DNA of 64,000 bases from Pseudomonas sp. SORT22 (GTDB taxonomy: Bacteria; Pseudomonadota; Gammaproteobacteria; Pseudomonadales; Pseudomonadaceae), in the NCBI RefSeq assembly GCF_018417635.1, contig NZ_CP071007.1, positions 434,001 through 498,000 on the forward strand. Reading direction: 5' to 3'. This document shows, piece after piece, positions 42,490 through 63,622 of this stretch. The first letter of the stretch is position 1. Every line of letters starts with the position of its first letter. Made by a program: the position numbers and the translations under genes. The notes beneath the pieces are model-generated. The model searched no databases and had not been told where the DNA came from. It was given only the letters and a program-made list of their open reading frames with translations.

Positions 42490-42520
42490 AACCCCGGCCT
42501 AGGCCGGGGTTGTTTGTTTT
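42490..42520 (+). terminator. oprD terminator overlapping the next gene's stop
   Basis: AACCCCGGCCTAGGCCGGGGTT (22 bp split in two perfect 11-bp arms, 42490-42500 and 42501-42511) with a T-rich tail 42511-42520. The convergent FMN gene's stop codon (42499-42501) is inside its centre. Confidence 0.85.
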
Positions 42521-44163
42521 CGCCGCACAGCAGGTTTGATCGCCTGCACCTCGCCGCTCTCCGGCTCGAAGCTGTCGCTGCGGGCCATGCGCCACATCCG
42601 TGCATAGAATTCACTGTCGATCGAGCCGCTGAGCAACTCACCGGGCTTGAGGAACACATGCAACTGCGAAAACAGGCGGATCTCGCTGGCGCTGATGCGC
42701 CGAACCAGGTGCTTGGGCTTGAGCTCGGCCGGGTGATCCAGGCCGGCAGCAGCCAGCATTTCGGCCAGGGCATGCAGGGTGTTGCGATGGAAGCTGTAAA
42801 CCCTGTCGGCCTTTTCCGGCACCACCAGGGCGCGTTGGCGTAACGGATCCTGGGTCGCCACGCCGGTCGGGCATTTGTTGGTGTGGCAGCTTTGCGACTG
42901 GATGCAGCCGATGGCGAACATGAAGCCGCGGGCCGAGTTGACCCAGTCGGCGCCAATGGCCAGCACGCTGGCAATGTCGAAGGCGCTGACGATCTTGCCG
43001 CCGGCACCAATGCGAATCTTGTCGCGCAGGTTCAGGCCCACCAGGGTGTTGTGCACGAACATCAGCCCTTCGCGCATCGGCACGCCGATGTTGTCGCTGA
43101 ACTCCCGTGGCGCGGCGCCGGTGCCGCCTTCCTTGCCGTCGACGACAATGAAGTCCGGGACGATGCCGGTAGCCAGCATGGCCTTGGCGATACCCATGAA
43201 TTCCCACGGGTGGCCAAGGCAGAACTTGAAGCCCACCGGTTTACCGCCAGACAGCTCGCGCAACTGGCCAATGAACTGCAGCAGTTGCACGGGGCTGCGG
43301 AAGGCGCTGTGCGCCGCCGGTGAGATGCAGTCCTGGCCCATCAGCACGCCACGGGTGGCGGCGATTTCGGCGCTGACCTTGTGCCCAGGCAGGATCCCGC
43401 CGTGGCCGGGTTTGGCGCCCTGGCTGAGCTTGACCTCGATCATTTTCACCTGTGGGTCGCCGGCCTGTTCGGCGAAACGCTGCGGATCGAAACGACCCTC
43501 CGGGGTGCGGCAGCCAAAATAGCCGCTGCCGATTTCCCAGATCAGGTCGCCACCGTGCTCGCGGTGATGGGGGCTGATGCTGCCTTCGCCGGTGTCATGG
43601 GCGAAGCGGCCACGTTTTGCGCCCTTGTTCAGCGCGGCAATGGCATTTGCACTGAGTGCCCCAAAGCTCATCGCCGAGATATTGAAGATCGACGCCGAGT
43701 AAGGCTGGCGGCACTGCGGGCCGCCGATGTTGATGCGAAATGAGGCAGGGTCGGGGGTTTCGACTGGCAGCATGGAATGGCTGATGAACTCGAAGCCTGG
43801 CCGGTAGACATCGTTGAGCGTACCAAAGGCCTTCTCGGCGCTCTCGTTCTTGGCCCGTGCATACACCAGCGAGCGCTGGGCCCGGGAGAACGGCAGCTTG
43901 TCATCGTCGCCTTCCAGCAAGTACTGGCGGATCTCCGGGCGGATGGTTTCGATCAGGTAGCGAATGTTGCCCAGGATCGGGTAGTTGCGCCGCACCGCGT
44001 GGTGGCTCTGGCGCAGGTCATTGAGGCCGACCAGGCTGAGCAAGGCGCTGATCAGGGTGAACGGCCACAACCAGGAATGGGCAGAAACAAACGGCAGGCT
44101 GGCAAAACTGAAAACGAGACAGCCGACAAGGCAGGCGTAGCGGCTGGGAAGCGAAGCTTTCAT
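42499..44163 (-). CDS. FMN-binding glutamate-synthase-family protein
   Basis: 554-residue protein corresponding to the central FMN domain of glutamate synthase large subunit. Residues about 1-60 hold membrane-spanning segments (SRYACLVGCLVFSFASLPFVS, then LWPFTLISALLSLVGL). FMN domain motifs: FGALSANAIAALNKGAKRG, DTGEGSISPHH, and KAMLATGIVPDFIVVDGKEGGTGAAPREFSDN. It lacks the amidotransferase and Fe-S parts, although CIQSQSCHTNKCPTGVATQ (about residues 425-443) retains the Cys cluster context. Role unknown; possibly a membrane-associated amino-acid oxidoreductase. ATG 44163 by family alignment. Confidence 0.87.
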   Translation of the reverse strand: MKASLPSRYACLVGCLVFSFASLPFVSAHSWLWPFTLISALLSLVGLNDLRQSHHAVRRNYPILGNIRYLIETIRPEIRQYLLEGDDDKLPFSRAQRSLVYARAKNESAEKAFGTLNDVYRPGFEFISHSMLPVETPDPASFRINIGGPQCRQPYSASIFNISAMSFGALSANAIAALNKGAKRGRFAHDTGEGSISPHHREHGGDLIWEIGSGYFGCRTPEGRFDPQRFAEQAGDPQVKMIEVKLSQGAKPGHGGILPGHKVSAEIAATRGVLMGQDCISPAAHSAFRSPVQLLQFIGQLRELSGGKPVGFKFCLGHPWEFMGIAKAMLATGIVPDFIVVDGKEGGTGAAPREFSDNIGVPMREGLMFVHNTLVGLNLRDKIRIGAGGKIVSAFDIASVLAIGADWVNSARGFMFAIGCIQSQSCHTNKCPTGVATQDPLRQRALVVPEKADRVYSFHRNTLHALAEMLAAAGLDHPAELKPKHLVRRISASEIRLFSQLHVFLKPGELLSGSIDSEFYARMWRMARSDSFEPESGEVQAIKPAVRRKQTTPA

Positions 44164-44277
44164 GGATCTTCCGCTGATATGAGAGATCCTTCCTAGGATA
44201 GGCAAAGCGTCCCGCCAGAAAACCAGTGGTTTCGGTAAAACACTTTTATCCCGGGCGTGCTTGCCAGAGGGCCGTGC

Positions 44278-50202: not shown

Positions 50203-53200
50203 TCAGTCCTTTATCTTGAAGTCAGTGACGTGGGTCATTTTCCCTTTAGGATCGAGCTTGGCCATGTAGTGGACGTTGACCCCGTTTACTTTACGCTCCA
50301 TTTTTGACCAGCCCTTGCCTTTGAAGTGAGGGTCTCCGATCTGGTCGGGCTTGATGATCTCTATCCCGTTTTCCGGATGTTTCTTGACATGATCCAGAGC
50401 GAACTCTTCGTTGCGGTTCCGGGGTCTGGTGCGCCCCGTTGATTTGCTTTTTACCCGTCGGGGTTTTCGGAAGCTGCATTTCTTCTTCCAACCCAGCGGG
50501 TCGATCCAACCGAGCGGATTCGGTGCGTATTGATAAAGGTTGATGCCCCCCAGCAGGCCGATGGGATCGGGTGTGGTGAAGCGTCCGATATCAGGATCAT
50601 AGAAGCGAAACGTGTTGTAGTGCAGTCCGCTTTCACGATCCAGGTACTGCCCTTGGAACCTGAGATTCTGCTCTTCGAGGTAATATCCTTCGCGGGTTTC
50701 CTGCAGGGTGTTGCCCCATACCAGATAGCTCGCCTGCCAGAGAACGTCACCCTTGAATTCGGTCAATTGCTCTGGCAAGCCGTTAAGGTCGTTGTGGTAG
50801 TAGCGCACGTGTTGTTGTGCGCCAGCGCCGTCGACCCGCGCCAGAGGCTCATGGCTGTCCTGATCATAGAGATAGAGACTGGTTCGGCCATGCTGCTGCT
50901 CCAGCAAAAGGCGCAGTCCATCCCAGGTAAAACGGGTCTTTTCCAGCAGATTGCCAGCATCGTCGTGCTGGCTTTTTTCGACGCGTCGACCCAATGGGTC
51001 ATAACGCATGTTCAGCACCCGTTCTCGGCCGCCGATATGGCTGCGGACCTGGATCAAGCGGTGTTCTGCGTCGTAGCTGAACCGTTGCACGCCGTGGCGG
51101 CTGCTACGTTTTTCGATCATCCGACCAAAGGCGTCGTAGCGATACCGCTTGTCTTGGTAAGAAAGCAAACGATTATGGCGGACAAGGCCCTTTCCGAGCT
51201 CTGAACCGTCGAGCAGATTAGCCGCAGCATCATAGGCAAAGACTTCGCTCTGGCCCTGACCTGTGTTCTGGCTGGCCATGATGCGAGCGCTGGCATCGTA
51301 ATGCAGCAGTTGCTGGTGCTGGCCTGCAAGATCCTGATTGAAACGACCGATCAAATTGTCGGCAGGATCGAAGTCAAAGCGTTGTTGAACGGGCGCTGGT
51401 AGCTGTGGCGGCTGCTGGAGTGAACGACGCAGCCGGGAGCGCAGGCGGCCGCTACGGTCGTACTCGCTGCGGGTGCAGAGCTGTCCCTGGGAGCGAAACA
51501 CTTCTCGATGCAGGCGGTCGCGCTCGAAGTCACAGATCACCTGGCCATCGAGATTGAGCTGGTGCAGATGGCCACTGCCATAGTAAAGACGATTTAGCCA
51601 GCGGCCGTCGCCCAGTCGGGTCTGGGTCAAGTTGCCAAGTTCATCGTAGTAGTGCTGCAGTAAGCCGGCCTGACTGCAGTCCTCAACAAGCTGTCCGAGT
51701 TCGTCGTAGCCGAATTCCAATTGTTCGCTGTTGCCGCTGGTATCGGTGAAACAGATGGCGATCAGGTGATCAAGTGCGTCGTAGCTGTACTCGGTTAATC
51801 CATCGTCAGTGCGTTTTTGGATTACCCGGCCGGCTGCATCCAGTTGGTAGTGGTGACAGATCGGTTTGAGTGTCGGCTCGTTGTCGTCGGGCGCCGGGAC
51901 ATACGTCTGAGCCGTAACGTTGTTCAGCGCATCATAGTGATAACAGCGGGTGCTTGAATCCAGATACTGTTGCTGGGTCAAGCGATCTCCTTGATCCCAG
52001 GCGAAGCGATAACGCTCACCATTTTCGTTGGTCAGCGTGAGCAAACGGCCGTAGGCGTCATAGCCGTACTGAACTTTGCGCCCGTGCGGATCGATGCGCA
52101 GGTGCAGCTGACCGCGACGGGTATAGAGGAACTGGGTGGTGTGCCCGGCCGGGTCGGTATGGGTACTGAGCTGACCGTTGCAGTGATACTGGTAAAGGTC
52201 GCTGCGCCCATCCGGTAACCGTCGCAGTTGCAAGCGGCCTCGTGCGTCGTATTCATATTCGGTACGTTCGCCGAGGGCGTCGGTGACAGATTGTAGATGG
52301 CCACGACGGTCATAGTTCATACGGGTGGGATAGCCCGAACAGTCAACCTGCTCACTGAGCAGGCCGTAATCATTCCAGCGCAAGTGTTGGCGCTTGCCTG
52401 TAGCGTCGATCACCTCTACCACTTGGCCTCGTTCGTCGTAGCGATAGCGAGTTATGTTGCCTTGTGGGTCGGTTTCACTGCTGCAGTTGCCGCGCTGATC
52501 GTAGCGATAGCTTCGCCGATTGCCTGCGTAGTCGGTCTCTACTCGGGGTAGAGACCAATGCTCCAGCCATAGGGTTGACTCGCTGCGCCCGAGTGGGTCG
52601 ATGCTTTCGCACAGGTTGCCGGACTCATCGTACAGGTATTGCCATTGCCCACCTTGCGGGTCGGTGGCAGCGAGCAACTGGCGCTCGTCGTTCCACTCGA
52701 AGCACCAGGTGTGGCCGAGGGCGTCGGTGTATTGGGTGATCTGGTACTGCGGGTTCCAGTGGCGACTGCTGACCCGTTGCAGGCTGTCGGTGATCCGGGT
52801 GATGCCGGCCTCGATGTCGTAGTCGAAACGATACTCGTCGCCATCATCGGTCCAGTGCCGAGCGACGCGCCAGTCGTCCGCAGTGCGAGTCCATTCGTAG
52901 AAGCAGCGCAGGCCGCTGGGCAACTGGTGCTCGACCATGCGTCGGCCCTGGTCGTAGCTGAAGCTGCGTTGCAACTGGCCATTGGCGTCGCGCACCTGGG
53001 CCAGGTCGCCGTTGTCGTCATAACCATAACTGACCAACAGTTCGGTTGCGCCGTCGCTATACAGGCGCTCGAGAGAACTGATCCGCCCTGGCCATTGAGT
53101 GCTGTAATGCAGTTGTACCTGGATCAAGTCGAAGGTATCGCGCAGACCGGTCAAACGACCACTGGCGTCGTAATCAAGATAGATGCGGTTATCGTTGCGG

Positions 53201-54498
53201 TCACCCAATTGCGCCAGGCGCAGGTGCAGTGGGTCGTTCGGAGTCGGCTGGAACAGGCGATACAATCCGTCGGTACGCTCGATCAGCAGTTCACCGTTGT
53301 GCTCGCGGCGTACACTCAGGCCTTCACCTGCGCTGAAGACGGCATCGCCCCGGGGTATGTGGCCCATGTCGATAATACGCGCCTGATCGTCGGTAAACAG
53401 CACTCGCTCGCCGCCTTGCGGGTGTAGTTCGATCCTGACAAATACCTCGTAATCGACGCTCCAGCCCGCACCGAAAAGGCCATCGTGGCGGGTGTCACGG
53501 CTGCTGTAGAAGCGCTGCCACTCCAGCGGGATCAAGCCGGGCAAGCTGAAGTCCAGATCATCGTCGTCAGCAAGTACCTTGGCCCCGGTGGGGCTATGGA
53601 CCGGATGCGCAGAGCCGGCTACAGCGGATGTCAACGCACCTGCTACCTGCTCGGTGAGGTAGGTAGCAACGCCGCCAATTACCATACAGCCCAGTTCGCT
53701 GTAGAACTTGCCGCCACGCCCGCGCAGCAGCATCAAAGCGGTTATCGCCAGGCCGATGCCCGGGGTCTTGCCACTGCGAATCTCGCGGACCACGATCGAG
53801 CCGCCGCCAATGCGCACGTTACTGGAGATCAGCCCGGCGTCGACGATCACCGCCTCGCAGGTGCTGCGATCGCCGCTGCGGCAAGCCGGATGGCCGTTGA
53901 TGGTGACCTTGCTCGAACCTTCGGCCAGGTACTGCGGCGGCATTGGCGGGTGCTTGCTGCAGAGGATCTTGTCGTCGTCGGCAGGCTCGGTGTTTGGTGC
54001 GGGGCTGGCGACCGTGGGCCGCCACATCTGCGAGAAAAAGCCCTTGGCCATGTCGAGGAAGCTTTCTTCTTCCTCTTCGGCAGGTGGCTGGGCGGCATCA
54101 CTGCCAGCGGGCGCCGCCGCGGCGACGATGACGCCAGCAGCGCGGGCGGCCGGTTTGCCATTGGTGTGGGTGTTCTTCGAGCCAGTGAGGATGTTGGCCT
54201 GCACCGAAGGCGGGAACAGAAAATTGCCGATACCCTCGCATAAACTGCTTAAACCCTTGTCGGCCCCGGTCTTGCTCATGGCCACGCCGACCACGATACC
54301 GACCACCGCGCCGAGTACGAAGCAGCCGAGGCCGCCGGTGACCACGGTAAGCCCAAGCGCCGCAGTCACCGCCGCGGTGGCCAACATGCCGATGGCGACG
54401 TTGGCGGCCACTTCCAGCACACCGCCGACGATGTCGGCCATCATCGAGGTGTGCATCAGCGCATCGCCCTGGCGGGCGGCCCAAAGAGCGTCAGACAT
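50203..54498 (-). CDS. rhs: T6SS Rhs effector with prePAAR-PAAR N-terminus and C-terminal toxin
   Basis: 1431-residue polymorphic toxin. Residues 7-16 are [10 protein letters not shown], an exact prePAAR motif (AARxxDxxxH). A long hydrophobic stretch at about 26-75 and a PAAR-like segment ([18 protein letters not shown], about 190-210) follow, then YD repeats from about 390 to 1300 forming the Rhs cage, ending [27 protein letters not shown]. The C-terminal 94 residues (1338-1431) are a basic domain ([17 protein letters not shown]... ending DFKIKD), not assigned. The EagR-type gene lies 12 bp upstream, immunity 2 bp downstream. Start ATG 54498. Probably loaded on the VgrG spike above. Confidence 0.9.
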   Translation of the reverse strand: [1431 protein letters not shown]

Positions 54499-54510: not shown

Positions 54511-54945
54511 TCAGGCCAGGGTGTCGAAGTTCAGTGATTGCTTGATCGCTGCCCAGTGCGCAGCCTCGGCATCACCCAGCGGTTGGGCTTTGACGTAACT
54601 CAGGGCGAACATCTTGCGCGTGCCGGGCAGTACCAGGGCCAGTTGGTACTGGAAGACCTTTTCGTTACCCTTGCTGAACTGGCTGCGCAGCTCGATGCCT
54701 TCCTCCGTCTGCTCGGCGCCCAAGCGCACGGCCTGGCGCGGCTGGAAGCGCAGGTCCTTGACCTGTTGTTGCAGGCGCTCGAGCTGGCCGTCGAAGTTGC
54801 TTTGCAGGGTTTCGCCGTCGGCCAGCAAGCTGCGGCTGATGATCAGCGAGGTGCCGAGCTTGGCAAAGCGCAGGATGTTGATGCTGGTGTCCTGCATTTC
54901 GGCATCGGGCAGGGCGAGCTGGAATTCGTTGAGGCGATAAGTCAT
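54511..54945 (-). CDS. DUF1795/DcrB-family Eag-type chaperone
   Basis: 144-residue DcrB-fold protein, starting MTYRLNEFQLALP. In T6SS loci, DUF1795 (EagR/EagT) proteins bind the N-terminal transmembrane segments and prePAAR of effectors until they mount on VgrG. The gene lies between vgrG and the rhs gene, which carries exactly that prePAAR plus hydrophobic N-terminus. Features: MFALSYVKAQPL, the strand near the C-terminus. ATG 54945; an in-frame alternative at 54954 is 3 codons longer. Confidence 0.82.
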   Translation of the reverse strand: MTYRLNEFQLALPDAEMQDTSINILRFAKLGTSLIISRSLLADGETLQSNFDGQLERLQQQVKDLRFQPRQAVRLGAEQTEEGIELRSQFSKGNEKVFQYQLALVLPGTRKMFALSYVKAQPLGDAEAAHWAAIKQSLNFDTLA

Positions 54946-54960
54946 GACGCACAAATCTCT

Positions 54961-56904
54961 TTATTGGCTGGCTTTGGGCTTGGGGAAGATCGCTTCCACG
55001 GCGCCATCGATGGTGCCTTTGACGCCTTGCCCGTCCGCAGTGGCGCCGGGGGCGCCGCCGATGTTCAGGTCCAGGGTGCCGCCGGTGTTGAACTGGGCAT
55101 TGCCTTGGGCGTTGAAGTTGAACTGCACGCCGGTGAGGTTGATCTGGCCGCTGGCGTTGAGTTCGAGCACGCTCTTGCCGCACACCAGGCGCAGGTTTTC
55201 GCCAACCTCGATCAGGTAGCTGCGGCTGATGCTGTCGGTCTTGGTCGAGCCCACCAGCAAAATGTCATCGCGCTTGACCGCGCGAATGCGGTCTTCGCCG
55301 ATGGTCGCCACTTCGCTGAAGTCCACCACCTTGTTGCGGTTGTGGCCCACCCAGTGGCTCTCGTCGTTCTCGACTTCGATGTCCTGGTTGCGCTCGGCGT
55401 GGATGTACAGCTGTTCGGCGCCCTTCTTGTCCTCCATGCGGATTTCGTTGAAGTTCGCCGGCGTGCCGCCTTTGCTCGAACGGCTTTTCATCCCGCTCTG
55501 GGTCGCATTGGCCGGCAGGTCGTAGGGCACCGTCTGCTCGGCGTTGTAGACCCGGCCGGTGATGATCGGCCGGTCGGGGTCGCCTTCAAGAAAGCTGACG
55601 ATCACTTCCTGACCGATCCGCGGGATCTGCATCGAACCCCAGTTCTTGCCGGCCCAGGCCTGGGACACGCGAATCCAGCACGAGCTGTTCTCGTTGGACT
55701 GGTCATGGCGGTCCCAGTAGAAGTGCACCTTGACCCGGCCATACTGGTCGGTCCAGATCTCTTCCCCGGCCGGGCCAACCACGATGGCGGTCTGCGGGCC
55801 CTTGACCTGCGGGCGCAGGGTGCTGGCCAGGGGGCGGAAGCTCTGCTGCGCATCGATGCAGCTGAGGTTGCTTTCGAACTGTGCATTGCCGCCGCCGGCG
55901 CCGGTTTCCAGGCGCTCCTGGACGATGTAATAGCGGGCACCGACGATCAGGTATTCGCGATTCTGGTCCTGGCGGCTGAAGCCGCTCATGCTGAACAGGT
56001 TGCCTGCCGCCAGGCCGCGGGCATTGCCGCGCAGTTCGATGCGTTCATGCAGGCTTTGCAGCGCTTCGATACGGGTACGGGCGTAATGCTCGCCGTCCTC
56101 ACTCTGCACATAGGTGCCGGGGTAGTCGTACAGCGGGTAGTCGCCGGCGCTGTGCGGGCGCGGCATTTGCGAGCGCACGTCGATGCGCGCGCTGGGGCGC
56201 TGGAAGTCGTAGTCGTTAAGCTCCAGCGAGCCGGACTGCACCTCCTGGGCCAGGTGCCAGTCGTTGAGGTGGTCACGCTCGCGGTGCTGACCATCAGGTG
56301 GAAAGTACGGCACCGACTCGTAGCCCGGCACCACCTGGTGGGCGCCATAGGCATCGGCCAGCACCAGCACGTGGCGGTCCTTTTCGTGGCGGAAGTAGTA
56401 GTAGATACCTTCCTGTTCCATCAAGCGGCTGACGAAGTCGAAGCTGGTCTCGCGGTACTGCACGCAGTACTCCCACTCGCGATAGGGGCGGCTCAAGCTG
56501 TCTTCGAAGTCGGAAAACCCCAGGTCGCGAAATACCTGCTTGATGATCTGCGGGATGCTCTGGTTCTGGAAAATGCGGCAATCGGAGGTCTTGCTCAGCA
56601 GCCACAGCCAAGGCCGCAGGGTTACGCGGTAACTGGCGAACTGGCCGCGGTCGATGCTCTGGCTGCAGCGCGAAACAATGCCGTGAAAATACCGCGAGCG
56701 GCCCAGCTCCAGTTGCAGGCTGAGGCTCATGGGCTTGCCGAGCAACTGGTTGAGGTCGATGGCCGAGTTGTCCGAGGTCAGTTGCAACTCGTAGTCGAAC
56801 AGCCGCCCCAGCTCTTCGCCGCCGCCCATTTCCGCCAGGATCAGCGCATCCGGGCCCAGCGGGCTGTTGATCTGCGCCAGTCGGGTGAATTGCTTGAATA
56901 GCAT
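54961..56904 (-). CDS. vgrG: VgrG, T6SS spike protein (TssI)
   Basis: 647-residue trimeric spike. The gp27-like N-terminus (LFKQFTRLAQINSPLGPDALI, LFDYELQLTSDNSAIDL), the gp5 OB-fold (GPAGEEIWTDQYGRVKVHFYWDRHD), and the repeated beta-helix ending NFNAQGNAQFNTGGTLDLNIGG are typical. It lacks an extra C-terminal effector domain, so cargo is delivered by the PAAR-Rhs protein. Stop lies 15 bp before the Eag-type gene. Confidence 0.95.
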   Translation of the reverse strand: MLFKQFTRLAQINSPLGPDALILAEMGGGEELGRLFDYELQLTSDNSAIDLNQLLGKPMSLSLQLELGRSRYFHGIVSRCSQSIDRGQFASYRVTLRPWLWLLSKTSDCRIFQNQSIPQIIKQVFRDLGFSDFEDSLSRPYREWEYCVQYRETSFDFVSRLMEQEGIYYYFRHEKDRHVLVLADAYGAHQVVPGYESVPYFPPDGQHRERDHLNDWHLAQEVQSGSLELNDYDFQRPSARIDVRSQMPRPHSAGDYPLYDYPGTYVQSEDGEHYARTRIEALQSLHERIELRGNARGLAAGNLFSMSGFSRQDQNREYLIVGARYYIVQERLETGAGGGNAQFESNLSCIDAQQSFRPLASTLRPQVKGPQTAIVVGPAGEEIWTDQYGRVKVHFYWDRHDQSNENSSCWIRVSQAWAGKNWGSMQIPRIGQEVIVSFLEGDPDRPIITGRVYNAEQTVPYDLPANATQSGMKSRSSKGGTPANFNEIRMEDKKGAEQLYIHAERNQDIEVENDESHWVGHNRNKVVDFSEVATIGEDRIRAVKRDDILLVGSTKTDSISRSYLIEVGENLRLVCGKSVLELNASGQINLTGVQFNFNAQGNAQFNTGGTLDLNIGGAPGATADGQGVKGTIDGAVEAIFPKPKASQ

Positions 56905-56927: not shown

Positions 56928-59606
56928 TCACGGCGCGTCGCTGAAGTGGTAGTGCAGGTCGTTGTCGCGGCGGCTGATGCGCACCCCGGCCAGGGCCTTG
57001 CCTTCGAGCATGCGGGTGAGGAACTCGCGGCTCATGTCCGGCAGCAGGCTGTTGGTCAGGATCGCGTCGATCATCCGCCCGCCGCTCTCGGTCTCGCTGC
57101 AGCGCGAAACGATCAAGTCGACCACTTCGTCGTCGTAGTCGAAGGCCACTTTGTGGGTGCCTTGCACGCGCTTGCGGATGCGCTCGAGCTGCAGGCGGGT
57201 GATGGCCTTGAGCATCTCGTCGCTGAGCGGGTAGTAGGGGATGGTCACCAGGCGGCCGAGCAGCGCCGGCGGGAAGATTTCCAGCAGCGGTTGGCGCAGG
57301 GCGCTGGCGATGGCCTCGGGTTCAGGGGTGTTCTGCGGGTCTTTGCACACCCGGGAAATCAGCTCGGTACCGGCGTTGGTGGTGAGCAGGATCAAGGTGT
57401 TCTTGAAGTCGATCACCCGGCCTTCGCCGTCTTCCATCACGCCCTTGTCGAACACCTGGAAGAAAATTTCGTGCACGTCCGGGTGGGCTTTTTCCACCTC
57501 GTCGAGCAGCACCACGCTGTAGGGCTTGCGCCGCACCGCTTCGGTCAGCACGCCGCCTTCGCCATAACCGACATAGCCGGGCGGGGCGCCCTTGAGGGTC
57601 GAGACGGTATGGGCTTCCTGGAACTCGCTCATGTTGATGGTGATGACGTTCTGCTCACCGCCGTACATGGCTTCGGCCAGGGCCAGGGCGGTTTCGGTCT
57701 TGCCTACCCCGGAGGTGCCGGCGAGCATGAACACGCCGATTGGTTTGTTGGGGTTGTCGAGGCCGGCGCGGGAGGTCTGGATACGCTTGGCGATCATCTG
57801 CAGCGCATGGTCCTGGCCAATGATGCGCTTGGCCAGGTGCTGGTCGAGCTTGAGCACGGTCTCGAGCTCGTTGCGGGCCATGCGTCCGACCGGGATGCCG
57901 GTCCAGTCGGCAACCACCGAGGCCACCGCCTGATAGTCGACGGTTGGCAGGATCAGCGGGGTTTCACCTTGCAGGGCGCTCAGGCGCTGCTGCAGCTCGA
58001 TGAGTTTTTCGCGCAGCTCATGGCTCTGTTCGCTGCCGGTGTCGCGGTCGACCACCCCAACGTTTTCGCGCAGCTGCGCGCGGGTGGCCAGCAGCTCGTC
58101 GACCAGGGCCTTCTCTTCGGCCCAACGGCTTTCCAGTTCGGCCAGGCGCTCGCGCTCGGTAGCCAGCAAGGTTTCAGACTGTTGCTGGCGGTTGCCGATG
58201 GCGATACCGATGGCCTGCTCGCGGGCGATGATCTGCAGCTCGGTTTGCAGTGCCTCGATGCGTCGACGGCTGTCGTCGACCTCGGCCGGTACCGCATGCA
58301 GGCTGATGGCGACACGGGCGCAGGCGGTGTCGAGCAGGCTGACGGACTTGTCTGGCAACTGGCGCGCCGGGATGTAGCGGTGGGAGAGCTTGACCGAGGC
58401 TTCCAGGGCTTCATCGAGGATCTGCACCTGATGGTGCTGCTCCATGGTCGAGGCCACGCCGCGCATCATCAGCAGTGCCTTGTCTTCGCTCGGCTCGGCG
58501 ACCTGCACCACCTGAAAACGCCGGGTCAGGGCCGGGTCTTTCTCGATGTGCTTCTTGTACTCGGCCCAGGTGGTGGCGGCCACGGTGCGCAAGCTGCCAC
58601 GGGCCAGCGCGGGCTTGAGCAGGTTGGCAGCATCGCCGGTGCCGGCGGCACCACCGGCACCGACCAGGGTGTGGGCTTCGTCGATGAACAGGATGATCGG
58701 TCTGGGCGAGGCCTGCACGTCCTCGATGACCTGGCGCAGGCGCTGTTCGAACTCGCCTTTCATGCTCGCCCCGGCCTGTAGCAGGCCGACATCCAGGCTG
58801 CGCAATTCGACGTCCTTGAGCGATGGCGGAACATCGCCGGCAACGATGCGCAGGGCAAAGCCTTCAACCACCGCGGTTTTGCCCACCCCGGCTTCACCGG
58901 TGAGGATCGGGTTGTTCTGCCGGCGACGCATGAGGATATCCACCAGTTGGCGAATCTCTTCGTCGCGACCAACGATCGGGTCGAGCTTGCCGCTGCGCGC
59001 CTGCTCGGTGAGGTCGACGGTAAAGCGCTTGAGCGCTTCCTGCTTGCCCAGGGCGCTGGGGGCCATGGCGCCGCTGGCTTCGCCCGGCACGGCGCCGGCA
59101 TTGAAACCGTCGCTGGCGCTCAGGGCGTTTTCCGGCGAGTCGCCGACGTACTCGTCAAAGCGCTCGCTGAGGGCTTCGACCTTGATCTTGGCAAACTCCG
59201 ACGACAGGCCGAGCAGGGCATTGCGCAGGCTCGGAGTCTTGAGGATGCCGAGCACCAGGTAACCGGTGCGCACCTGGCTTTCGCCGAACATCAGGCTGCC
59301 ATACACCCAGCCACGCTCCACCGCCTCTTCGACGTGGGACGACAGGTCGGTGATCGAGGTCGAGCCGCGCGGCAGACGGTCCAGGGCCTCGGTCAGTTCG
59401 CGGGCCAGGCGCGCTGGCTCCAGGTTGAACTGGCGAATGATGCGGTGCAGGTCCGAGTCCTGCAGTTGCAGCAACTGATGAAACCAGTGGGCCAGTTCTA
59501 CATAGGGGTTGCCCCGCAGTTTGCAGAACACCGTAGCGGCCTCGATGGCCTTGTAAGCGACGCTGTTGAGCTTGCCGAACAGCGCGGCGCGACTGATTTC
59601 ACCCAT
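56928..59606 (-). CDS. clpV: ClpV (TssH), T6SS sheath-disassembly ATPase
   Basis: 892-residue AAA+ unfoldase that recycles contracted TssBC sheath. N-domain at residues 1-150 (LFGKLNSVAYKAIEAATVFCKL...), first AAA module with Walker A GEAGVGKT at 237-244 and IILFIDEAHTLVG, middle coiled coil, second AAA with GTSGVGKTETALALAEAMYGGE and SVVLLDEVEKAHPDVHEIF. Overlaps the tssG end by 8 bp. Normal length for TssH. Confidence 0.96.
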   Translation of the reverse strand: MGEISRAALFGKLNSVAYKAIEAATVFCKLRGNPYVELAHWFHQLLQLQDSDLHRIIRQFNLEPARLARELTEALDRLPRGSTSITDLSSHVEEAVERGWVYGSLMFGESQVRTGYLVLGILKTPSLRNALLGLSSEFAKIKVEALSERFDEYVGDSPENALSASDGFNAGAVPGEASGAMAPSALGKQEALKRFTVDLTEQARSGKLDPIVGRDEEIRQLVDILMRRRQNNPILTGEAGVGKTAVVEGFALRIVAGDVPPSLKDVELRSLDVGLLQAGASMKGEFEQRLRQVIEDVQASPRPIILFIDEAHTLVGAGGAAGTGDAANLLKPALARGSLRTVAATTWAEYKKHIEKDPALTRRFQVVQVAEPSEDKALLMMRGVASTMEQHHQVQILDEALEASVKLSHRYIPARQLPDKSVSLLDTACARVAISLHAVPAEVDDSRRRIEALQTELQIIAREQAIGIAIGNRQQQSETLLATERERLAELESRWAEEKALVDELLATRAQLRENVGVVDRDTGSEQSHELREKLIELQQRLSALQGETPLILPTVDYQAVASVVADWTGIPVGRMARNELETVLKLDQHLAKRIIGQDHALQMIAKRIQTSRAGLDNPNKPIGVFMLAGTSGVGKTETALALAEAMYGGEQNVITINMSEFQEAHTVSTLKGAPPGYVGYGEGGVLTEAVRRKPYSVVLLDEVEKAHPDVHEIFFQVFDKGVMEDGEGRVIDFKNTLILLTTNAGTELISRVCKDPQNTPEPEAIASALRQPLLEIFPPALLGRLVTIPYYPLSDEMLKAITRLQLERIRKRVQGTHKVAFDYDDEVVDLIVSRCSETESGGRMIDAILTNSLLPDMSREFLTRMLEGKALAGVRISRRDNDLHYHFSDAP

Positions 59607-60648
59607 GTTCCGGACTCCTTGTGGATTGCGATGCGCGCGTCTCGGCGTAGTACCGAGCCAGTGTCAGGTCGCTGGCATCGTGTTGCGGGCGGCCGAGCCA
59701 GGTATCGAAACCCAGGCGTCGGCCAGTGTTGAGTTGCAGGGGGGGTATTTCGTCCTGCTGCAGAATCAGTTGCAGGTCCCAGTCCAGCTCGTGCCCCTGG
59801 TGCTCGGCGACCCAGGCCACCAGCGCGGCGAAGGCACTGCCATCGGGCAATAGCGACAGGTATTGCTCCAGGCTCAGCGGCCCCAGGCAGATGCGGAACT
59901 TGTGCTGGCGGTCCCAGACATGGCTGCCCAGGCACACATCCATGCCCAGCTGATTGGCGCTCGCGCCCAGGCGGCTGCGTTCAGGCAGTTGCAGCCACTG
60001 GCCAACGTATTCCTCGATGCTTACCGGCACACCGAAGTAGGCCCCGAGAATGCCGCGCAGGCCATCCGGATAGCGGGTCTGGGCGGCGAGGTGGCCGCTG
60101 TAGTGCAACTTGGCGGTATCCGGCAACGGGCCCTGATCACGCAGCGCCGGGGTGCCGCGCCCGCTCAGGGCGGCCAGGCGGGCGGCCCAGTAGTCGTCAT
60201 CGGGCCGGTCATGGCTGACCGTCGGCCGCGCTTCGGCCCAGGCCCGGTAGAACAGGCTCAACAGACGGTGATGAAAGACATCGAGAAAGCGCTTGCTGGT
60301 GCTGTCGGCATTGTTGCGCTGGCGCTCGCGCATGTACTCGGTCAGGTGTAGCGGCAAGGGGCCGTTGGGGCCGCCGAGGCCAAAGAAGAACTGCTCCAGG
60401 CGCGCCGGGCCCTGATCACTGGCAGGCGTCAGCGCCGCCAGGGTGGCCGGCGCAAACGCACAGTCGAGCTGCTGGCCAAGGCGCACCGGATCATCGGCCA
60501 GGCGCAGCGAATGGCCGAAGCGTGGCAGCTGCGGCGACTCGCATTGCAGCCGGCGCAGGGCCTGGAAGAAATCGTAGTTCCAGGGTTCGGCCTGCATTTC
60601 GCTGAGGATGTTCACAGGGTCGGACGGCGTCCGGGCTTGGCTTTCCAT
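59599..60648 (-). CDS. tssG: TssG, T6SS baseplate protein
   Basis: 349-residue TssG/VasB-family protein with the typical EMQAEPWNYDFFQALRRLQ and LGGPNGPLPLHLTEYMRER segments. Forms the baseplate wedge with TssF, TssE and TssK. Start ATG 60648 lies 37 bp inside the tssF 3' end, so the genes are coupled. Confidence 0.94.
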   Translation of the reverse strand: MESQARTPSDPVNILSEMQAEPWNYDFFQALRRLQCESPQLPRFGHSLRLADDPVRLGQQLDCAFAPATLAALTPASDQGPARLEQFFFGLGGPNGPLPLHLTEYMRERQRNNADSTSKRFLDVFHHRLLSLFYRAWAEARPTVSHDRPDDDYWAARLAALSGRGTPALRDQGPLPDTAKLHYSGHLAAQTRYPDGLRGILGAYFGVPVSIEEYVGQWLQLPERSRLGASANQLGMDVCLGSHVWDRQHKFRICLGPLSLEQYLSLLPDGSAFAALVAWVAEHQGHELDWDLQLILQQDEIPPLQLNTGRRLGFDTWLGRPQHDASDLTLARYYAETRASQSTRSPEHG

Positions 60649-62471
60649 CGCATGATCTCGCCGCGTTCGGTGGTACGGAGCACCGTCTCGGTAAAGCTGT
60701 TGATCGACACGTAACGTGCCAGGAAGCGCTCGAACACCGCACCGAGCAGGAACACGCCAGTGCCGCGAAAGGCGTTTTCGTCGAATTCCAGGGTGATCTC
60801 CAGGCCACGGCCAAAGACGATCGGCCCCGGCATCGGCAGGCGTCGCGTGCAGGCCTTGCTGCTGACCTCGCGCAGGCCGTCGATCTGCAGCTGCAGGGCG
60901 GCGTCGTGGCTGTCGCCGTACAGGCGCAGCAACTCGCGCAGGGCGGCGGCGCCCTGGCCTTGCTCGGTCAGCGACAGGTAGTTCAGCGACAACTGGCTGA
61001 TCAGACGCCAGGCCTTGTTGTCATGGGCATGGCTGGCCCGTGGCCGGCTTGGCCCGGCCAGGCAGCGAATGGCGGCCACCGGCGCGCTGTCGGCCAGGGT
61101 GAAATCACTGCGGCCATCGCCGACGTTCATGAACAGCGCCAGGTCGCGATTGGTACACAGGGCACTGACCCCCAGTTGTCGCAGGTCGTGGCGGTAAGGC
61201 GCCTGTTGGCCATCGACCAGGCTGATGAAGGTTTCGCTGCCCATGTAGGTCGAGCGGGTACCGTTGCGGCGCTGCTCGCTGGAAAGCATGCGCGGCTCGC
61301 GGCGGACGATGTAATAGGCCTGGTCACGGCCGTAGCGCGACGGGTCGCGTACGGCATAGAAGGGCAGGAAAGCCTGGTCGGGGCCGGTGCCGTGGCCGGT
61401 AACGCTGCTCAACGAGTGGATCTCGAAATCCGTTGGCCGGGTGCGGTCGGCAATCACATGATGTTCGTTGACCCGGTCATTGAGGTGGATGCGGTCGACC
61501 CGGCGCGGGAACAGGTTGATCGCCGGTGTGCAGAAGGGCACGAACTGCTCGGCGCCGACGCTGCCTTCCAGGCTCTGGTCGTAGCGCTCGAACAGCACGA
61601 TCAGCTCCAGCTCCTGACCATCGCAACGCTTTACTGCGCGATCCAGTTCGGCAAATTCGACGAACAGAAAACGCTGCGGCAGGGCGAAGTACTCCTGCAG
61701 CAGGCGGTAACCCTGGAATGCCTGCGGCACCACCGGTAGCGCCGCCTCGCGGTCATCGAAGCCGCAAGGGCGCAGGGCCGAGGTCGGGATGCGCTCGACC
61801 CAGTCGCTGCCAGGCTGGCGCGCGAACACCGCACAGGCGTTGCCCAGCAGCTGTTCGTACAGGCGAAACGGCAGTTCGTCGGCGCCGTTCAGGTACAGCG
61901 GCAGGCTGCTGAGGTCGAGGGCGTTGAACGGCAGGTCGGCGCCGGTACGCAAGGTAATGCGCAAGCCGGCGCGGGCTTTCGGTTCGCTGGCGGCCAGGCG
62001 CCCGAGGCGGGCTGCCGGGTTGCCGAAGTATTCCGCCTGGGCGACTTGCAGCGGCCACAGGGTAACGGGATGGGCACTACGAAACTCGCAAGGCGTTTGC
62101 GAATCGCGACCAAGGGTGGCGCGCAGCACGCTGCCACGCGGCAGGGTGAAGCCGGCACTGAGCGAACCTTCATCTGGATCGGCCTGCATCTGCACCACCG
62201 TCATCGACGGCGTCGGCGCCAGGTAGTGCGGGTAGGCGATCTCCAGCAGGTTGTGGGTGAAGGTCGGGTACTCGGCATCGAGCTTGAGTTGCACCCGTGC
62301 GGTCAGGTAGGCAAAACCTTCGAGCAGGCGCTCGACATAGGGGTCGGCGCAGTCAATGCCGGACAGGGTCAGGCGCCCGGCGATCTTCGGGTATTCCCGG
62401 GAAAATTCTGCCGCGCTTTCGCGGATGTGTTGCAGTTCCTGGTTGTACAGCTCGAGCAGGCGCGGGTTCAT
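60612..62471 (-). CDS. tssF: TssF, T6SS baseplate protein
   Basis: 619-residue TssF (VasA family): [58 protein letters not shown] and the strongly conserved [15 protein letters not shown] in the N-terminal third. Assembles with TssG and TssE. Overlaps tssE by 4 bp and tssG by 37 bp. Confidence 0.95.
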
Positions 62472-62983
62472 GGACGTCTCCGGCGCTCGGCGGGGGCCAC
62501 CCGGACATGCCCGGATTCCAGGTCAAGGCCGGTGCGCAGCAGCAACGGTAGTGCCGCCGGCTGGGCCCACAGGTCGCCTTCGATCTCGAAACTCAGGGCG
62601 TTGTTGTTCATTTCCCCCGGTGCGACCTGGGCGCGAACCCTCAGGCTGCTGCGCAGGATGCGCGGTTCGAAGGTGGCGATGGCCTGGTAAATGATGCTCT
62701 CCAGTGCGCTGATATCAATGTTCGAGGCGCTGTTACCGGCCAGTGCCGGCAGGCCGTAGTTGACCACCGAAGTGCCGGCCGGGGTGTTGAGGGTGGCGGC
62801 CGCATCGAGCAGTGAAGTGGTGTTGAGCAGCCAGGTGAGGTCGCGCAGTACCGAGGCCTTGAGCTGGCTCAGCGAAAGCACGCGCTTGTCGTTGGCTTCT
62901 TGCAGGTTGCCGGGCTCGTCGTCGGTCAGACGATCGAGCAGCGAAGGCTGCAGACGGTCACGTGCAGCGATTTCGGCTACCAA
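62468..62983 (-). CDS. tssE: TssE, T6SS baseplate gp25-like protein
   Basis: 171-residue gp25-like lysozyme-fold protein: [18 protein letters not shown] and the [10 protein letters not shown] segment with the IxxAIxxFEPRI helix. A TTG start at 62983 is supported by a GGAG site 8 nt upstream; no ATG lies in a better position. Links sheath to baseplate. Between it and hcp is a REP-like repeat. Confidence 0.9.
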
Positions 62984-63025
62984 GGGGCGGCTCCGGTGGT
63001 GATATGCGTGAGTGCGTTATCCCTA

Positions 63026-63074
63026 TCGCGGGGCAAGCCCGCTCCTACAGGGTGGGAGCGGGTTTGCCCCGCGA
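63026..63074. repeat. REP-like inverted repeat between hcp and tssE
   Basis: TCGCGGGGCAAGCCCGCTCC (63026-63045) and its mate (63055-63074) are complementary with one mismatch and a 9-nt spacer. It is of the same type as the repeat at 1358-1404, and within the T6SS transcript could stabilise the hcp mRNA. Confidence 0.82.
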
Positions 63075-63089
63075 AGAGGGCGAAACGCA

Positions 63090-63578
63090 TCAGATCTTGA
63101 CGTTCTGGCGCACGTTCCAGCCGTACTTGACCGGGCCGCCGTCTTTGGTGCCGTCAGCTTTCTGCGGCTGGTAATCGACCGTGACTTTGCCGAAGTTCAG
63201 GGTGACGTTTTCGGTCAGGCGGTCATCGCCGCCCGAGCCACCGGTGCTCAGCGAGCTGATCAGCACTTCTTCGAGGTTGATGATCAGGTACTCGACCTGG
63301 CTCTCGCCACCGGCCTTGCGCACGGTCAGCTTGACCTTGTCGATGTGCTTGCCGCTGGAGCAGTGCATCATCAGGTTGGGGCTGGATTTGTCGACGTACT
63401 TGGTCAGCGACAGGTCCTGGATGTTGACCTTGCCGGCGCCGCCGCCACCACCCATGTGCATGTTGCCGGACTGGGCCATGCCCCAGCTCCAGTTCAGCAC
63501 ATCGATTTCGTCCTTGTGGGCCTTGTCCATGGACTCGCCCTTGATGTCGCCAATCTTGATGAAAATATCAACTGCCAT
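63090..63578 (-). CDS. hcp: Hcp, T6SS inner-tube protein (TssD)
   Basis: 162-residue tube protein secreted by the system: MAVDIFIKIGDIKGESMDKAHKDEIDVLNWSWG with the Gly-rich loop GNMHMGGGGGAGK, then VEYLIINLEEVLISSLSTGGSGG and LNFGKVTVDYQ. Start ATG 63578 is preceded by TCTGGAG. Codon use is highly biased, as expected for the most abundant component. It is downstream of tssC with an 80-bp gap. Confidence 0.95.
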   Translation of the reverse strand: MAVDIFIKIGDIKGESMDKAHKDEIDVLNWSWGMAQSGNMHMGGGGGAGKVNIQDLSLTKYVDKSSPNLMMHCSSGKHIDKVKLTVRKAGGESQVEYLIINLEEVLISSLSTGGSGGDDRLTENVTLNFGKVTVDYQPQKADGTKDGGPVKYGWNVRQNVKI

Positions 63579-63622
63579 GTTGTCTCCAGAGTGTGGCATC
63601 TACCACATTATTTTTTCAGTGC

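Follow-up and report, generated by a model that had tools for sequence, protein, structure and literature searches.

The question raised by the present locus is what the short C-terminal domain of an Rhs protein does, and whether it is a working toxin at all. The gene lies in a 64,000-nucleotide stretch (contig NZ_CP071007.1, positions 434,001–498,000; hereafter the window) of the genome of Pseudomonas sp. SORT22, which consists of one contig of 5.80 Mb. Its open reading frame (ORF) encodes 1431 amino acids and ends with ...DPIGLLGGINLYQYAPNPLGWIDPLGW|KKKCSF...DFKIKD*. An initial annotation of this DNA had counted 94 residues behind the Rhs end signature and quoted three peptides from them, including the terminal DFKIKD; the count is correct (residues 1338–1431) and all three peptides are present. 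These 94 residues have the appearance of a small antibacterial toxin that is intact and probably cuts RNA. It is rather probable that the C-terminus is an intact polymorphic-toxin domain delivered by the type VI secretion system (T6SS), the toxin being likely a small metal-independent ribonuclease (RNase) of the RelE/BECR type, neutralised by a 111-residue protein encoded next to it. Computation established how the protein is built, that the domain is conserved and the C-terminus exchanged, that the neighbour co-occurs with it, and which fold is predicted.

A PAAR motif, RHS repeats and an Rhs core end are combined in one protein, and the genes of VgrG, of an EagR-type chaperone and of the T6SS adjoin it, as is characteristic of T6SS PAAR-Rhs effectors. 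Ahead of the toxin stand paired DPxGL-type motifs (DPIGL and DPLGW) with a spacing of 17 residues; the second one ends in Trp, not in Leu, and is followed by the 94 residues. The pattern of two DPxG motifs and the cleavage rule for such Rhs ends are described in the accessible part of PMC8636562. By this rule, cleavage of the Rhs protein in the window would be expected between W1337 and K1338.

The C-terminus had been described as basic and A/T-richer than the Rhs body, with the remark that Rhs C-termini are exchanged independently of the core. All these statements hold. The GC content is 0.507 in the C-terminus vs 0.599 in the body, and all 1243 body segments of equal size (282 nt, step 3) lie above the former value. 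The isoelectric point (pI) of the toxin domain is 10.3. The low GC content together with the opposite charges of the toxin (+15) and of the 111-residue neighbour (−8) fits an exchanged cassette. The Rhs end of the window used as a query matched 42 of 57 related genomes (own included), and from 31 loci (L020 and L023–L052, the window's own among them) 13 C-termini could be parsed by a motif search. At E 1e-5 these 13 fall into 13 separate clusters, and the window-type domain is found solely in the window's own. This count leaves aside the other 18 loci, which gave no match to the motif; a less strict pattern revealed some of their C-termini, and these differ once more. Two more Rhs core ends lie close together elsewhere in the genome that contains the window (G000:C1:2614092-2616581).

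The 111-residue ORF begins 2 nt past the toxin stop and encodes an acidic protein (pI 4.8). A homologous ORF is located behind the toxin in all seven Rhs-branch loci read (the window, L005, L006, L007, L008, L009 and L054). The alignment of seven immunity-type proteins, which includes P0011 and leaves out L054, has 19 invariant columns, and the identity to the protein of the window is 35–57%. A protein search with the 111-residue protein found only 2, and 298 genomes of the genus gave three matches including the window's own, one of them weak (9.8e-5). In another genome of the genus, one of these three (L020, G170; Rhs frame 1-1185), the Rhs protein bears an unrelated and unassigned C-terminus of 105 residues, beginning with DTVLYRSM. 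Its own neighbour is a 118-residue open frame with no Pfam match, and behind this lies an orphan copy of the window's immunity gene, which shares 94% identity with the L005 gene. The model of the immunity protein, built from 7 sequences, has a pLDDT of 92.9 and no significant fold match. An exchangeable C-terminus, an adjacent immunity gene and orphan immunity genes are the features of polymorphic toxin/immunity systems; the pair is intact and comes from a known kind of system, in which the 111-residue neighbour would be the immunity protein that neutralises the toxin.

When the C-terminal region was compared with 5.8 billion proteins, 8 of 16 candidates passed E ≤0.01 with 66–100% identity. 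All of them bear Rhs-type domains; the top one is the window's own and the nearest named Rhs relative belongs to Pseudomonas sp. MLB6B. A genome scan confirmed 5 of 44 stretches as loci, with record titles of Pantoea, Providencia, Thorsellia, a Flammeovirgaceae assembly and Lysinibacillus; the Lysinibacillus copy has neither the STGR motif nor an Rhs fusion. On a Phytobacter plasmid (L054, 2006-8038) an Rhs tip carries a window-type toxin with its immunity gene, next to genes annotated as AHH toxin/Imm43 and as TNT-related toxin. The plasmid segment holds several toxin/immunity cassettes in a row, and the toxin frame of the window family is unannotated in its table. In Thorsellia (L007, 3806-5392) a second, partial Rhs with another C-terminus lies directly behind the toxin/immunity pair, which resembles orphan rhs-CT arrangements. 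In the locus titled Pantoea (L005) the gene downstream of the pair is, by eye, closely like the window gene 42499-44205; this suggests Pseudomonas as the source, and the Pantoea label may be wrong.

A second branch of the domain appears in wider searches. The toxin alone had four matches among the 298 genomes of the genus. Besides the window these are, at 30–44% identity, the end of a 4328-residue frame, a 194-residue frame and a copy with in-frame stops. Alignment A1, which already holds two second-branch members, hit two of 274 genomes of the class, namely that of the window and a second one whose copy is interrupted by an in-frame stop. Counted by genome, the domain is therefore uncommon. 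In a protein search, which sees short proteins only, A1 returned 185 of 1279 candidates at E ≤0.01. Source names among the 120 listed include Pseudomonas, Gilliamella, Salmonella, Burkholderia, Rhizobium, Ochrobactrum, Salipaludibacillus, Nocardia, Saccharomonospora, Taibaiella and Terriglobales, and those of short matches include filamentous hemagglutinin and, once, MafB. The records of a plasmid collection gave eight matches to the window domain alone: Phytobacter at 79% and, at 32–34%, one DUF637 protein from Providencia, four from Arsenophonus and two stretches without annotation in Neisseria records. Two records of this collection named Neisseria gonorrhoeae (NZ_CP119142.1 and NZ_CP119140.1, ~2.17 Mb) look like chromosomes, to judge by their length. 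The profile of 14 Rhs-type sequences aligns with that of 60 other-branch sequences (listed proteins P0023–P0131 with both STGR and DDFKF patterns) over 77 columns with probability 99.3 and E 1.3e-20. The domain, whose presence behind other cores the initial annotation had wished to see checked, occurs on both Rhs and DUF637 proteins. Directly behind the second-branch toxin of L002 and L003 lies an ORF of 139–141 residues (44% identity to each other), with no detectable relation to the 111-residue family and no Pfam match; these are candidates for a second immunity family.

Conservation in distant taxa argues that the C-terminal domain is not a chance feature. One alternative is a C-terminus that is decayed or truncated and has no activity. 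The domain is just 94 residues long and decayed relatives are known (in-frame stops in L004 and L010; L009 lacks the N-terminal motif and the Rhs core), but the window copy agrees with its relatives in the conserved columns and in the way it ends, its frame is open, and the neighbour gene is intact. A truncated remnant, which the initial annotation had named as a refuting outcome, is highly improbable.

The domain had been left without a family, and this is still the case. No significant match was found to any solved structure or named family. No Pfam family covers it at the cut-off in the window domain, in further toxin pieces and proteins or in the 80 alignment members (the query sets overlap), and the same is true of NCBIfam with the window domain and 10 others; a pretoxin HINT domain is an additional match in one of the 80 members (E 6.7e-5). 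Identity with Ntox47 (PF15540) was rejected: the weak hits, confined to 4 of 80 members and with E no better than 0.021, are under the 25-bit Pfam cut-off, the window domain has no match, and the profile comparison gives a probability of 0.1–0.2. An HNH/EndoVII nuclease finds no support either, with 0 of 80 members matching a Pfam HNH-type family at E up to 5. The toxin domain is of a widespread kind that bears no family name in the libraries searched.

The AlphaFold model of the toxin consists of an N-terminal helix and a four-stranded meander, the first strand of which has just 4 residues. This is the topology of the BECR fold, as given in the accessible text of PMC3482391. Many, though not all, BECR members have Ser/Thr in strand 4; no invariant one occurs in residues 84–93, and the domain is therefore not filed as a BECR member but only as working like one. 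H73 is invariant in 80 of 80 members, the other His residues occurring mainly in the Rhs branch; E27 (77/77), D89 (79/80) and K91 (79/79) are near-invariant. The initial guess of an RNase-type fold agrees with the basic charge and the modelled topology, and RNase activity is, with moderate confidence, the best reading of the toxin.

The near-invariance of E27, D89 and K91, with DxK placed in the strand after a Glu-bearing helix, could also point to a minimal PD-(D/E)xK-like metal-dependent nuclease with catalytic E27 and D89-x-K91 acting on DNA or tRNA, and such toxins are common in polymorphic systems according to the accessible parts of PMC3482391 and PMC9086364. However, His rather than Asp is the invariant residue predicted opposite D89, and the 80 members have no significant Pfam nuclease match. 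In the PD-(D/E)xK fold a helix and a strand normally come after the DxK strand, whereas the present protein ends with this strand and they are missing. Such a nuclease is unlikely. On one predicted sheet face lie an invariant Lys, His, Asp and Lys, which together resemble an active site, and ParE is not known to have such a set; a ParE-like toxin blocking DNA gyrase instead of cutting RNA is quite improbable, even if RelE rows, scoring up to 5.0, are ahead by just about one unit. A helix-plus-meander fold reached by convergence could also serve another chemistry or target, such as the modification of nucleotides or proteins. This reading would suit the lack of a significant structural or family match, but the size, the high positive charge and the conserved His/Lys/Asp resemble nuclease toxins, and we give it a small chance.

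For the preferred RelE/BECR-type RNase we infer the following scheme of cleavage, chemistry, residue roles, target and neutralisation. The Rhs shell would enclose the toxin for T6SS delivery, and autoproteolysis past the second DPxG motif would free it in the target cell. RNA, be it tRNA, mRNA or rRNA, would be bound by the basic open sheet face with W60, K62, H73, D89 and K91; T17 and R19 of the STGR loop and E27 perhaps share in this binding. H73 together with D89 or K62 may carry out the transfer that cuts RNA, and the acidic 111-residue protein would bind the toxin and shield the producer.

Features of the locus are collected in the table. The T6SS block (56928..63599) lies upstream of the Rhs gene, beyond the DcrB-family gene and VgrG. 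The names TssH/ClpV and TssE are our reading of AAA/ClpB and gp25 matches, and PF08786 is what we take to be DUF1795 of EagR.

Table. Coordinates of the Rhs locus (window positions unless a locus is named).
Feature	Position	Strand	Remarks
Candidate immunity protein, 111 aa	49865..50200	-	acidic, alpha+beta
PAAR-Rhs T6SS effector	50203..54498	-	Pfam/NCBIfam: PAAR motif, DUF6531, RHS repeats, Rhs-associated core end
C-terminal toxin domain, residues 1338-1431, 94 aa	50206..50487	-	stop codon 50203-50205
Rhs end, two DPxG motifs (DPIGL...DPLGW)	50488..50568	-	sequence; predicted autocleavage site after W1337
DcrB-family (PF08786) protein, EagR-type chaperone of the Rhs effector	54511..54954	-	
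VgrG spike protein	54961..56904	-	Phage_GPD, gp5 trimer domains
TssH/ClpV-like AAA ATPase	56928-59606	-	AAA/ClpB match
TssG	59599-60648	-	
TssF	60612-62471	-	
TssE-like gp25	62468-62983	-	gp25 match
Hcp	63090-63599	-	
ORF behind second-branch toxin	L002 1731-2156; L003 1732-2151		139-141 aa

The domain occurs in many taxa, though uncommonly per genome, yet stands outside all family libraries searched; toxin surveys relying on these libraries would therefore miss it. Toxicity and immunity are open to direct tests, thanks to residues that hardly vary and to a conserved neighbour able to persist after toxin exchange. More tentatively, and with clearly less than even chances, the domain may belong as one branch to a large superfamily, so far uncatalogued, whose members are passed among T6SS Rhs effectors, DUF637/hemagglutinin-type and MafB-like proteins and stand-alone cassettes in ~5 phyla (by source names). 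It would then have a Lys-His-Asp-Lys active site of its own, and its RNA target or its chemistry would be new for delivered toxins.

RelE/ParE-type toxins (RelE 1wmi, 3g5o and 4fxe; YoeB 7v6w) have 4–9% identity to the window domain and sit in a toxin-antitoxin setting, whereas the present domain belongs to a delivered effector; its conserved His-Asp-Lys set also differs from R61/R81 of RelE, as reported in the accessible part of PMC3482391. Other delivered C-terminal toxins with specific immunity show some structural likeness, but the window domain is shorter, and PDB sequence searches revealed no sequence relation to them. DUF637 and other long C-terminal-toxin proteins carry the second-branch domain at their C-terminus (L002, L003, L053); unlike the Rhs protein of the window, DUF637-type carriers use other delivery systems, and in L002 and L003 an unrelated ORF takes the place of the 111-residue neighbour. 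Ntox47, a predicted BECR RNase, is likewise located behind Rhs cores in the same genus but differs in sequence. Similar in layout are Tke2 and Tke4 of Pseudomonas putida KT2440, which are also PAAR-Rhs effectors, are accompanied by VgrG and EagR and end in a short toxin (102–110 aa); in contrast to the window domain, their C-termini are assigned to HNH/SHH nucleases in the accessible part of PMC5363822.
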